Assembly: GCA_902168115.1 (NCBI GenBank)
Contig: CABHPB010000055.1
Span: 1-41,452 of the forward strand
DNA from: an uncultured Methylopila sp.
Lineage (GTDB): Bacteria > Pseudomonadota > Alphaproteobacteria > Rhizobiales > Methylopilaceae
Length of the DNA stretch: 41,452 nucleotides
Direction: 5' to 3'
Shown: positions 36,942 through 41,296 of the stretch, one piece after another
Layout of the letters: every line of letters starts with the position of its first letter
Position numbering within the stretch: the stretch's first letter is position 1
Position numbers and translations under genes: made by a program
Notes under the pieces: generated by a model
Told to the model about the DNA's origin: nothing
What the model saw: the letters and a program-made list of their open reading frames with translations, nothing else
Databases searched by the model: none

Positions 36942-37640
36942 TCACCCTCGCGCGGTCGGCCCGAAAATCTCCTCGAACGTCTCGCGCATCGCCATGTCGA
37001 CCTCGGCCATGGAGACGACGCGGCCGAGGTCCGCCAGGCTCGTCACGCCGTGGTCGCGGACCCCGCAGGGGACGATGCCGGCGTAATGCGACAGATCCGG
37101 CTCGACGTTGAGGCTGACGCCGTGGAGCGTCACCCAGCGGCGCACGCGCACGCCGATCGCGGCGATCTTGTCCTCGGCGCCGGCGCCGCGGTCCGGCCGG
37201 CGCACCCAGACGCCGACCCGGTCCTCGCGGCGCTCGCCCGTCACGCCGAATCGGTCGAGCGAGGCGATCAGCCAGGCCTCCAGAGCGGCGACATAGGCGC
37301 GCAGGTCCGGCCGGCGGCGCCTCAGGTCGAGCATCAGATAGCCGATGCGCTGCCCGGGGCCGTGATAGGTGTACTGGCCGCCGCGCCCGCTCGCGAAGAC
37401 GGGCAGGGCGTTCGGCGCGACGAGATCGGACTCCTTCGCGCTGGTGCCTGCGGTGTAGAGCGGCGGGTGCTCGACAAGCCAGACAAGCTCGTCGGCCTTG
37501 CCCTCGGCAATCAAGGCCGCCTGACGCTCCATCTCGGCAACCGCATCCTCATACCCGACCGGCCGCTCGGCGATCCGCCATCGTACCGGCGGTGAGCCTG
37601 CAAGGGGCAGCATCTGGTTTTCGATTTCGGAACGTTGCAT
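36942..37640 (-). CDS. lipB: Octanoyl-[acyl carrier protein]:protein transferase LipB
   Basis: 232 residues from the ATG at 37640. Transfers octanoyl from ACP to lipoyl domains of the 2-oxoacid dehydrogenases, the first step of lipoate assembly. Signatures: [40 protein letters not shown] (residues 85-104), the catalytic Lys158 in DKIAAIG and Cys192 in [13 protein letters not shown]. The frame runs to 37709 and would then overlap the cyclase end; the ATG at 37640 leaves a 28-base gap. Start choice is moderately sure as no good ribosome binding site is visible. Confidence 0.94.
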
Positions 37641-37668: not shown

Positions 37669-39129
37669 CTATCTGGAGACAACTGCCGCCGAGTGCAAGG
37701 GGCGGGCACTGGCGGGCTCGGCCATCGGGATCGTGAAGACCTTCATTTCATTGGCGATGCCGCGGAGGGCCACATTCTGTGCTTCCGGCTTCAGGCCGCG
37801 CTTGGCGAGAAGGCTCGATGCGCGTGCGTCATCGAGAACCTGCTCGGTCGCGAAGATCTCCTGCGAGTTGGCGAGGTGCTGGACGCGCGAGGCGATGTTG
37901 ACCGTCTGGCCGAAGTAGTCCTGCCTCTCGTTGAGACTGACGGCAATGCAAGGGCCTTCATGGATGCCGATCTTGAGCAACAGATCCTCGCCGCCCCTCT
38001 CGCTGTTGAGCTCGATCATGGCGTCGCGCATCCGTATGGCGGCGGAGACCGCCCGATCTGGCGACGGAAAGGTGGCCATCACGGCATCACCGATCGTCTT
38101 GACGACGGCACCGGCCTCGGCGCCAACAATGTCGTTCAGCACTGCAAAATGCGCCTTGACGAGGTCGAATGCGGCGAGATCACCGACCCGATCGTAAAGT
38201 TCGGTGGAGCCGCGCAGATCGGTGAAAAGAAAGGTAAGGCTGGTAATCTTGAGCCGCTGGTCGACGCCAATCGTTTCGGTACGGTAGAGGTCGCGGAAGG
38301 TCTGGTTGGAGAGCAGAGCCTTGGCTGTCAGAAAAGGCCGCCGCTGTCCCAACAGATGGTGTAGCGCGTCATTGGCGATGCAGACAGAGGGAAGGGTCCT
38401 CACGTCGAGCTGGTTTTCGACCTGAATGCGGATCGGCCCGGGCTGCAGTTTCATCTCCTGGCTCGGAGAGTGAGACCGATCATAGATGATCGAGAGGCTG
38501 CGTCGCTCCCGGGTCGGTTCACCGGTCACATCGATGAACTGAACGGCATGTGTCACGGGTTCGAAGACGATGATATATTCTGCAGGCAAGTGCAGGGAAA
38601 TGACGCCTTTTTCACCAGGCGGCAACTCCATCGCTTCGAGGATGAACTCGTCGACCGTTGCCTCGTAGTTCTCCTCGGGCAGGTCGATGCCGGAGCCCCA
38701 ATAGACCTGGCGGAAATATTCCTCTGGCGACAACCTGTCGGGATCATGCGCCTCGATCGCCCGAAGCCTCGGACTGACGGTGAAGGTGACCTCTACCATC
38801 TCGTCAAGATTGGGCTCGTAGCCCGCAGCGCAGAGCGAACACGTGTAGTTGGAACTCTGCACGGTTTTGAGCGTAGTGTTAACGCCGAGAACGCCGCCAC
38901 AGCCGGGACAAAGCACGTTCCATGACATCTCGAAGAGACCGAGGCGGGAGGCATGGAGAAACCCGGCAACTGCGTCTTCCGGATCCAGGCCATACGCGTC
39001 CGCAAAGGCGAGCGCATTGATACGGTTCAGCTTCCGGTCCGGCGCGTTGAGAACCAATCGCTCCATCGCATCGGCCACCGCAGGGCTGACCGACTGACGC
39101 AGAGCTTCGAAGGGCCGAGCTTCGTTCAT
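37669..39129 (-). CDS. Class III adenylate cyclase with N-terminal zinc ribbon (DUF5939-type)
   Basis: 486 residues. Probable ATP to cAMP cyclase. The C-terminal cyclase domain begins near 295: metal Asp304 in [12 protein letters not shown], metal Asp348 in [13 protein letters not shown], adenine-specifying Lys344 and Asp404 ([15 protein letters not shown]), transition-state Asn411 and Arg415. The N-terminal 280 residues look like the DUF5939 region and include a four-Cys ribbon, Cys74/Cys77 (LCPGCGG) and Cys97/Cys100 (YTCSLC). No membrane helix. It ends 28 bases upstream of lipB and uses more A/T-ending codons than lipB. Base composition points to acquisition with the DNA to its right. Confidence 0.9.
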
Positions 39130-39272
39130 GCCCGCATACTACACGGTCTCGCGCGGAATGCGGTAGAAATTTTGCTGAAATTGCCGCCGGCCAATGCACG
39201 GGTTCAAGTTGAGCTACCCGCGGGCAGAGGTGGCGTGACCGTCGCCCGAACGATCGCGCGACGGTCCAGCAA

Positions 39273-39374
39273 CTATTCCGGACGGTAGTGCATGCCGGGG
39301 CGGATGAACGCGCCAGCCTTCTTCGGCGCGATAGCGGTTACTGCAAGGTTCGGCTTCTTTACGGTCTTGGTCAT
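39273..39374 (-). CDS. 33-residue peptide gene upstream of the cyclase
   Basis: On the minus strand an ATG at 39374 opens a 33-codon frame ending in TAG, with AGAGGA eight bases before the start, one of the best ribosome binding sites in the region. The peptide starts MTKTVKKPNLAVTAIAPKKA and ends with IRPGMHYRPE. It has a basic N-terminal half and a Gly/Pro/His/Tyr-containing end without Cys, and no membrane segment. The cyclase gene starts 143 bases further on the same strand. I do not recognise it. It could be a signalling or modified peptide, a small regulatory partner, or an upstream leader peptide. Confidence 0.55.
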   Translation of the reverse strand: MTKTVKKPNLAVTAIAPKKAGAFIRPGMHYRPE

Positions 39375-39627
39375 CTGGATTGTCCTCTGAGCGCCAGGTG
39401 AGTCTTTGCGCAAGATAATTTCAGAAGAATTTGGGAAGGGAACAATCATTTTTTTGAGTTATCAAAGGTATTAAGTAGCTTATAACGCCAAAATCGCGTG
39501 ATATGCGTAATTAAAGAGCGTGATTTTAAATATAGTCGCGTGAATTTCGATGTATTCTATCAATTGATAAACACAGCAAGCTTATGTACTATGGAGAATG
39601 CTTAAATATTTGTGACGGAGTTATTCA
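39375..39627. promoter_or_regulatory. AT-rich divergent promoter region with direct repeats and a palindrome
   Basis: This 253-base gap lies between the minus-strand peptide gene and the plus-strand 72-residue gene. It is the most AT-rich stretch in the window. GCGTGA occurs three times in direct orientation (39496-39501, 39518-39523, 39538-39543), spaced 22 and 20 bases, with a GCGTAA at 39505-39510; the bases after each are A/T-rich. A perfect 12-bp palindrome TATCAATTGATA sits at 39558-39569. It very likely contains promoters for both genes and binding sites for a regulator. Exact -10 and -35 boxes are not certain. Confidence 0.6.
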
Positions 39628-39846
39628 ATGGGGCTTATACAATCGGCAGTAAAAATTGCTCAGGAACAGTCCGCAGATTTGAAGCCGCGTAAGCGCGAGC
39701 GCGTCGCGCGCATCAATCAAAGCCTGCAAGAGCTTCACAGGCTCGCGGACGATCGCGAACTGGTGATGTTACGGTTCTTGCTTTCGATGGCGTTGGAAGA
39801 GGTCGGTGCTGTGAGCGCCACACTCAAGGAGCGAGGTCGGAAGTAA
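39628..39846 (+). CDS. Small helical protein of unknown function (72 residues)
   Basis: 72 residues, start MGLIQSAVKIAQEQSADLKP, with CGGAG upstream. Highly charged and predicted helical in the second half (RINQSLQELHRLADDRELVM, then RFLLSMALEEVGAVSATLKE). The end overlaps the convergent regulator gene by 23 bases (39824-39846). It shares a loose pattern L.EL.RL...D.E..ML...L..A..E with the 57-residue protein at 40786. Function unknown. Confidence 0.65.
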   Translation: MGLIQSAVKIAQEQSADLKPRKRERVARINQSLQELHRLADDRELVMLRFLLSMALEEVGAVSATLKERGRK

Positions 39847-40627
39847 CCGTCGAGACCAGGTCCTGACGCTCGCGCTTGAGCACCATCCGGACAGTGGCAT
39901 CGATTATCGGATCGTCCTTGTGGTAGTTGCGCGACTGCCTGACGGCCCTTCGAAAGGTAGTGCCGGGTGCCGCGGGCCGCATGCACAGGGCGGAAAACGA
40001 AACGCCTGACTCCGTCGTGATCATGGCGTGCCCGCTGAGCGTGGGCTGTGAAAGCGACGTCCATCTCAATCGCATCATCGAGGGTTCGTAGGTACCCCGC
40101 TGATTGACACCCACAAGCATGATCCAGTTGAGCCTCTCCACAATCAGGCCCTTGTGATCGCCCACCCTGTGGAAGAAGAGCTCGTCCTTCGGCTCGCTTG
40201 CGCCGACGATGCGGCGAAATGTCAGTGCCTCGCCCTTCTTGGCGATGACAACCGGCGCGCAGACTATGCGATCGGGGTCCTTGGGAACCGAGATCCAGAG
40301 AAAGTAGAGGCCAGGCTTGATCGAGGCCATGCCCTCCGTCCAGAGCGGCCGCATGACGTCGGCACATTGCGCGTTGATCGTACCCTGCTCGCTGATCTTT
40401 CTCTCGCTGCGAGGGGCGCTTGCGTCGCCTGCGAACAACTCTTCCTCGGAAATGTTGAAATAGGCACAAATCTTTTCAATGCTCCGCCGGGAAGGCATCG
40501 CTTTGCCATGGAGATATTTCTCGAACTGGGTTCGATTCATACCCATCTCGCGACAAACCACCTCGATGTCTCCCCACTGCGGGCACATCCGTCTCAAATT
40601 TCTTGCGAGATTGGCGCTCAAAGACAT
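39824..40627 (-). CDS. XRE-family transcriptional regulator with unknown C-terminal domain
   Basis: 267 residues from the ATG at 40627 with TGAGG seven bases upstream. The N-terminal helix-turn-helix (residues about 5-65) includes DIEVVCREMGMNRTQFEKYL and SRRSIEKICAYFNISEEELF. The remaining 190 residues form an unrecognised beta-rich domain (GLYFLWISVPKDPDRIVCAP, TFRRIVGASEPKDELFFHRV) that could sense a ligand. It is not the peptidase-type domain of LexA-like repressors: no Ser-Lys pair was made out. Divergent from the 57-residue gene over 158 bases with repeated GTTGC sites. Confidence 0.85.
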   Translation of the reverse strand: MSLSANLARNLRRMCPQWGDIEVVCREMGMNRTQFEKYLHGKAMPSRRSIEKICAYFNISEEELFAGDASAPRSERKISEQGTINAQCADVMRPLWTEGMASIKPGLYFLWISVPKDPDRIVCAPVVIAKKGEALTFRRIVGASEPKDELFFHRVGDHKGLIVERLNWIMLVGVNQRGTYEPSMMRLRWTSLSQPTLSGHAMITTESGVSFSALCMRPAAPGTTFRRAVRQSRNYHKDDPIIDATVRMVLKRERQDLVSTVTSDLAP

Positions 40628-40959: not shown

Positions 40960-41296
40960 GCTTTGCGCGGCGATTGCTCCCGTCTAATTCGGATACAATC
41001 GCATTGCCTACAAGGCTTCATGCTGCGAAGGCACTCAGCATTTTTGGAGCGCTCTAATAAGTTGCTTATTTGAGCTAAAAGCAATTTTAACTTGTAGGAT
41101 TGCCAGAAAAAATCAATCCCCGCACGTTTCCGCCGGGGATTTGATTTCGAAGCCGGTCTTTTTGAGACGACTTGAATGGTGCGGTCGAGAAGATCCGCAA
41201 TATCACGCAAACCACTGTAAATCTCGACTTCAATGGCCCATGGTCTTGAATCTTCGGTCGTTTGGAAACAGTAGGTTAGCATGGCGGTGGTCCACG
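40960..41296. other. Non-coding stretch between the small gene and the recombinase
   Basis: 337 bases, AT-richer than the core. On the minus strand a frame of 134 codons (40953-41357) crosses it, but it lacks a good start, overlaps the recombinase end in another frame and contains a terminator; I do not call it a gene. An imperfect repeat AAGTTGCTT ... AAGCAATTTTAACTT lies around 41058-41094. No tRNA end or clear attachment core was recognised. Confidence 0.4.
41107..41147 (-). terminator. Intrinsic terminator downstream of the recombinase gene
   Basis: Read on the minus strand, AAATCAAATCCCCG (41147-41134) pairs with CGGGGATTGATTT (41122-41110) apart from one bulged A, with an 11-base loop, and then runs into TTTTTT. 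This is a good Rho-independent terminator, 150 bases after the recombinase stop on the same strand. Confidence 0.75.

Follow-up and report, generated by a model that had tools for sequence, protein, structure and literature searches.

Azole-type RiPPs with a SagB enzyme (streptolysin S, TOMM/LAP) use a YcaO cyclodehydratase. Another peptide-modification system, described in NCBIfam, comprises TIGR04510, TIGR04511 and, presumably, TIGR04509. In the passages of a 2025 preprint that deal with the Pseudomonas pfl/pos RiPPs, a nitroreductase domain makes Z-dehydrophenylalanine without YcaO, and nitroreductases not tied to YcaO in RiPP clusters are described as rare and functionally uncharacterised (PMC12636437). 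We report here a 33-codon gene whose product is, quite probably, an orphan member of an uncharacterised family of short precursor-type peptides and does not have the adjacent cyclase as its partner.

The window, as we call the entire stretch of 41,452 nucleotides that was analysed, contains on its minus strand a frame (39374..39273) encoding MTKTVKKPNLAVTAIAPKKAGAFIRPGMHYRPE and ending with a TAG stop. Translation, alignment and a profile match assign this frame to a precursor-type peptide gene with the C-terminus PGMHYRPE. The original prediction was accurate for the coordinates, for the stop, for the AGAGGA motif located 8 nt before the ATG (39383..39388, minus strand), and for the position of the frame on the same strand as the cyclase, 143 bases before the start of the latter at 39129. 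It had also called the ribosome binding site strong. The motif, which resembles such a site by consensus match only, is indeed present at good spacing, but it is not special. Because a comparable start site was found at 7 of the 273 ATG frames of 20 to 60 codons in the window, the ribosome-binding site by itself is weak evidence for a real peptide gene. An alternative ATG at 39449, which has no AGAGGA-type site, would extend the peptide to 58 residues. The peptide contains neither Cys nor Ser, is encoded by a single copy in its own genome, and had no match to Pfam, NCBIfam, PHROG or PADLOC models at the limits used.

The gene upstream of the peptide (39824..40627, minus strand) was assigned by domain search, homology and structure modeling to a regulator comprising an XRE helix-turn-helix (residues 1 to 69 approximately) and a β-barrel domain (98 to 220 approximately). 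The predicted structure (mean pLDDT of 82, pTM of 0.59) combines the XRE domain with an up-and-down β-barrel, the modeled shape of which would be suited to ligand binding. Matches to the regulator were present in 27 of 297 genomes from the order, the host being one of the 27, and were absent from 10 other genomes of the genus of the host.

Relatives of the regulator were collected with a search model built from 24 sequences (40 had been requested initially), and the best 80 named loci of at least 581 relatives were analyzed. A SagB-type dehydrogenase was present in the fetched stretch of 30 of these 80 loci. In 29 of the 30, including 8 loci whose peptides were in the profile used for detection, a family peptide was located directly upstream of the dehydrogenase and on the same strand. 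The thirtieth locus, L086, harbored only a fragment of the dehydrogenase; its profile hit falls within this fragment and was left out of the count. Among the same best 80 of at least 581, the dehydrogenase loci originated from Mesorhizobium or grouped with it in 23 cases (including L068, titled 'Bacterium') and from other Hyphomicrobiales or alphaproteobacteria in 7 cases. The dehydrogenase also adjoined the peptide in 8 of 8 peptide-bearing loci that had been picked by the peptide. The usual gene order of the cassette is the XRE and β-barrel regulator, a peptide of 28 to 42 residues, and a stand-alone SagB-type FMN dehydrogenase. No description of this cassette was recognised in searches of the open-licence literature of PubMed Central.

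The family peptides mostly lack Cys, matched no NCBIfam model, and share a C-terminus approximating G-[ML]-x-[YF]-[ND]-K-x. In 15 representatives, including the window and Roseateles peptides, the Gly was present in 13, the aromatic residue in 14, and the following N/D-K in 13. The aromatic residue was replaced by Leu beside a full-length dehydrogenase (L025/L054). For 21 distinct Mesorhizobium peptide genes, the pN/pS ratio was 0.24 in frame versus 1.38 and 2.53 when the frame was shifted, both shifted frames being interrupted by stops (L074 was left out of this comparison), and the last seven residues were invariant. These values show purifying selection on the Mesorhizobium copies.

Several features of the regulator loci were observed besides the peptide. 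In Mesorhizobium, the dehydrogenase is followed by a gene for a small helical protein (e.g. L051 3336-3647, L054 12433-12663), which was found in 23 of the 30 loci with a dehydrogenase versus 2 of the 50 without (best 80 of at least 581). The window contains between the peptide and the regulator a 72-codon frame for a small helical product (39628..39846, plus strand) that is weakly similar to this Mesorhizobium gene (pairwise E of 0.006 to 0.02). A second type of Mesorhizobium locus (L024, L047) has no dehydrogenase and harbors another small frame, upstream of the regulator and ending with KPVLVKRDRLSAIAAVACPISHPCG, for which the best NCBIfam match was a lasso-peptide model, below cut-off. In genome G029, a CHASE2 adenylate cyclase (L049 2675-4918) is located approximately 2 kb from a regulator-peptide-dehydrogenase cassette. 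The regulator of L048 (G136 C1 4751922-4752643) and the dehydrogenase of L064 (4328-5651) are each split over two frames, which may reflect decay or sequencing error.

The relationship of the window peptide to this family was assessed at several levels. Across the order (297 genomes, that of the host among them), the search gave four weak matches besides the window peptide itself (E of 0.013 to 0.07). One of them, a frame of 28 codons in G134 (MSKKTLNVAVKPAKSTAYVRPGMYYNKV), has a regulator on one side and a SagB-type dehydrogenase on the other; the G134 and window regulators are identical at 77 of 253 residues. The closest peptide is encoded by a 38-codon frame on a plasmid whose record names Roseateles sp. 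XES5, ends with ...KPNLSVAPVKTNPNFVTPGMMYRAE, and has 13 of 27 aligned positions in common with the window peptide, including the YR-x-E ending (PGMMYRAE versus PGMHYRPE in the window). Because the Roseateles peptide has the same ending, the presence of YR-x-E in the window in place of the usual N-K is a shared variant rather than damage. The Roseateles frame stops 40 nt before the dehydrogenase and is missing from the gene table of the plasmid, the one annotated record examined. The Roseateles regulator, which is 38.7% identical to that of the window over residues 1-266 of the latter, and the SagB/ThcOx dehydrogenase are on one strand, with no gene listed between them on that strand in this incomplete table. 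Overall, the window regulator is 30-39% identical to cassette regulators.

Profiles were built without the window peptide from 10 to 14 hand-picked representatives, with start codons that were also chosen by hand (uncertain for L023). With the 14-peptide profile, to which the Roseateles peptide had been added, the window peptide came top among 933 stop-to-stop frames (E of 1.3e-4); the E value was 0.11 for the runner-up and 2.4 for the best-scoring frame of the reversed set. The window peptide was also the first of the 933 frames with profiles of 13 (E of 0.0029) and 11 sequences (E of 0.01). When the G134 and Roseateles peptides were also left out, the resulting 10-sequence profile gave the window peptide an E value of 0.18, versus 0.17 for the best reversed control; for this reason, similarity to the distant family members alone is below significance. 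The case for homology draws on the two closest peptides and on their common placement, in which each follows the same regulator in the same orientation. Together, these comparisons suggest that the 33-residue peptide gene is very probably real and that its product is most likely a RiPP-type precursor. Of the three roles proposed in the original prediction, a modified peptide appears to be the best fit, since the homologues are located directly upstream of a SagB-type dehydrogenase. A secreted peptide was not supported: an ABC-transporter ATPase cluster was present within 6 kb in 3 of 8 peptide loci, at differing distances, and no exporter tied to the cassette was found.

Two of the three cassette features are present in the window, namely the XRE and β-barrel regulator upstream on the same strand, and a short peptide with a C-terminal G-x-x-[YF], the next residues being R-P (R-A in Roseateles). 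The third, a SagB-type dehydrogenase next to the peptide, is not. No such enzyme was detected in the window (best hit with an E of 0.75 over 14 residues) or in the 154-contig draft genome of the host, and the same query did match Mesorhizobium genes, used as a positive control. Because the dehydrogenase is absent, the window peptide is classified as homologous to the precursor family and not as part of a complete cassette. Loss of the dehydrogenase recurs in Mesorhizobium: among the loci that keep the small gene following it, L074 and L101 have no dehydrogenase and L086 has a fragment. The peptide may be a decaying remnant, i.e. a former precursor without present function, a reading to which we give slightly less than an even chance. 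The absence of the dehydrogenase here and the drifting peptide of L074, which ends with SQAMHDNKR after dehydrogenase loss, are in favor of decay. However, the frame, the start site, and the regulator of the window are all intact, and the C-terminal ending is common to the Roseateles peptide, which does have a dehydrogenase. The remnant and our preferred reading, an orphan member of the precursor family, are distinguished solely by whether the peptide is still active.

The orphan is located in a region of distinct composition, the GC content in 500-base windows being 0.63-0.76 up to 37,750 and 0.47-0.61 beyond it. Four of five sibling regions keep the leftward gene order up to lipB, and the fifth has lipB alone in common with the window. 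The cyclase, the regulator, the small frames, and the integrase fragment had no match in any of the five. The latter fragment, a possible integrase C-terminus cut by the contig end (41297..41452, minus strand), was detected with a PHROG integrase model (E of 0.002) and had no Pfam integrase match. The first part of lipB in the window (37480-37640) differs from that of a sibling, and a native-looking lipB start is present at the end of host contig C110 (L191). These observations are most simply explained by the insertion of an accessory block in the 5' part of lipB, bringing a diverged replacement start. Alternatively, they may reflect another copy of lipB or contamination, which the record puts at 3.7%. 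Near the possible integrase fragment, 17 bases (41177-41193) exactly match the host tRNA-Leu(gag) region of C110, and this match may be an attachment-site core or due to chance.

The same block harbors the cyclase that the original prediction had paired with the peptide, a DUF5939 class III nucleotidyl cyclase (37669..39129, minus strand), which domain search and locus comparison led us to place outside the system. According to this pairing, the peptide would be a ligand or regulator of the cyclase, which would have taken the place of the lost dehydrogenase downstream. The two genes are on the same strand and 143 bases apart, and neither the peptide-regulator pair nor the cyclase occurs in the other genomes searched within the genus (at E of 1e-60, 1 of 13 genomes at genus level has the cyclase, namely that of the host, as do 21 of 297 at the level of the order, counting the host). 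Another system, described in NCBIfam, also has a class III cyclase next to a SagB relative. In spite of these arguments, the peptide, the regulator, and the dehydrogenase were all absent within up to 1.5 kb of 27 of 27 other cyclase loci, so that the peptide and regulator adjoin the cyclase at 1 of 28 cyclase loci, that of the window. Conversely, any relative of the window cyclase was found in only 3 of 81 regulator loci, at approximately 30% identity, which we read as background. In the other genomes listed for both regulator and cyclase (G069, G114, G136, and G209), the two are either separated by at least 60 kb or carried by different contigs, and relatives of the cyclase also occur on rhizobial plasmids. 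In addition, a stable hairpin with a 9-bp GC-rich stem (39237..39266, minus strand) was predicted by folding a few bases after the peptide stop, the z-score of the 156-nt stretch between the two genes being -3.9. Pycsar defence, which pairs a PycC-type cyclase with an adjacent effector, was considered for the cyclase: PADLOC PycC models matched its catalytic domain (best E of 7.9e-15), the full-length match being DUF5939, and of the neighbors, the peptide and the regulator were scanned and had no PADLOC match. A partnership between the peptide and the cyclase is very unlikely, and the cyclase appears to share the accessory block with the peptide by chance. The additional claim that no peptide-cyclase pair had been described calls for caution, as one of the NCBIfam families, TIGR04510, is named 'putative peptide modification system cyclase', but the window cyclase, at 16.3 bits for a cut-off of 400, is outside that family.

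That the frame is a chance one without a product is highly improbable. Both the frequency of comparable start sites among short ATG frames and the score of the 10-sequence profile, no better than that of the reversed control, are compatible with chance, but not the homology to peptides found in a conserved gene order. An attenuation mechanism, in which translation of a leader peptide would control the cyclase, is scarcely credible: the succession of a short frame that has a start site, a strong hairpin, and the cyclase would fit, but the hairpin has no U-run, the search between peptide and cyclase revealed no U-run terminator and no terminator-antiterminator pair, and the conserved part consists of the C-terminal amino acids of a family that precedes a different gene elsewhere.

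For the precursor family to which we assign the orphan, we propose that the N-terminal half of the peptide would serve as a recognition leader and that the dehydrogenase would oxidise the C-terminal end. The most likely site would be the conserved Tyr/Phe of G-M-x-[YF], giving an α,β-dehydro residue (-2 Da). The barrel of the regulator would sense the modified product and control the cassette. In the window, loss of the dehydrogenase would leave the peptide unmodified or on its way out. Dehydro-aromatic chemistry, proposed by analogy, is a tentative assignment that we hold to be somewhat improbable; the conservation of the aromatic residue in all but one representative is in its favor, and the Leu variant beside a full-length enzyme is against it. 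It is doubtful, but conceivable, that the cassette represents a new class of minimal intracellular modified peptide, in which a stand-alone, YcaO-independent SagB-type flavoenzyme would desaturate the C-terminal Tyr/Phe of a precursor of approximately 30 residues, the product being read by the β-barrel regulator. We attach very little probability to the idea that the cyclase, in the place of the dehydrogenase, joins the peptide to cyclic-nucleotide signaling in the window. The partner of the window peptide to study is the upstream regulator, not the downstream cyclase. More generally, a recognised peptide-modification enzyme is immediately preceded by a short gene in approximately 30 named loci (best 80 of at least 581), and these peptides name a candidate substrate for the stand-alone SagB-type dehydrogenase, with a chemistry that is directly testable.

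The cassette resembles the TIGR04509/04510/04511 system in the presence of a SagB relative near the gene, and four of four cassette dehydrogenases tested matched TIGR04511 at 142-160 bits, below the 240-bit cut-off. In contrast, TIGR04510 was not found in three cassette-bearing Mesorhizobium genomes or in the host genome (none at E of 1e-20). It was found in 5 of 12 genomes searched, and each time a SagB relative was encoded on the same strand no more than 1.2 kb away; these five genomes (L211-L215 with L199-L207) lie outside the order, and the peptide profile detected nothing convincing at the five loci. With the azole-type RiPPs, the cassette shares the dehydrogenase superfamily, since four of four dehydrogenases tested scored above the cut-off of TIGR03605 and Pfam nitroreductase was also matched. 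It differs from them by its peptides, which mostly lack Cys (and, in the window, Ser), and by the YcaO cyclodehydratase, none of which was found among 10 proteins neighboring other cassettes or in the Roseateles gene table. The Pseudomonas pfl/pos system, in the passages of the source that describe it, relies on an MNIO-nitroreductase fusion, an HEXXH enzyme, and transporters, whereas the cassette has a stand-alone enzyme (PMC12636437), and the Os17 precursor is reported in the corresponding section of its source to comprise 85 residues (PMC7726476), versus 28 to 42 for the cassette peptides. The likeness is in the reaction itself, as in these same passages the pfl/pos nitroreductase, with no YcaO involved, modifies a RiPP precursor towards the C-terminal end, which is what we propose for the cassette (PMC12636437).
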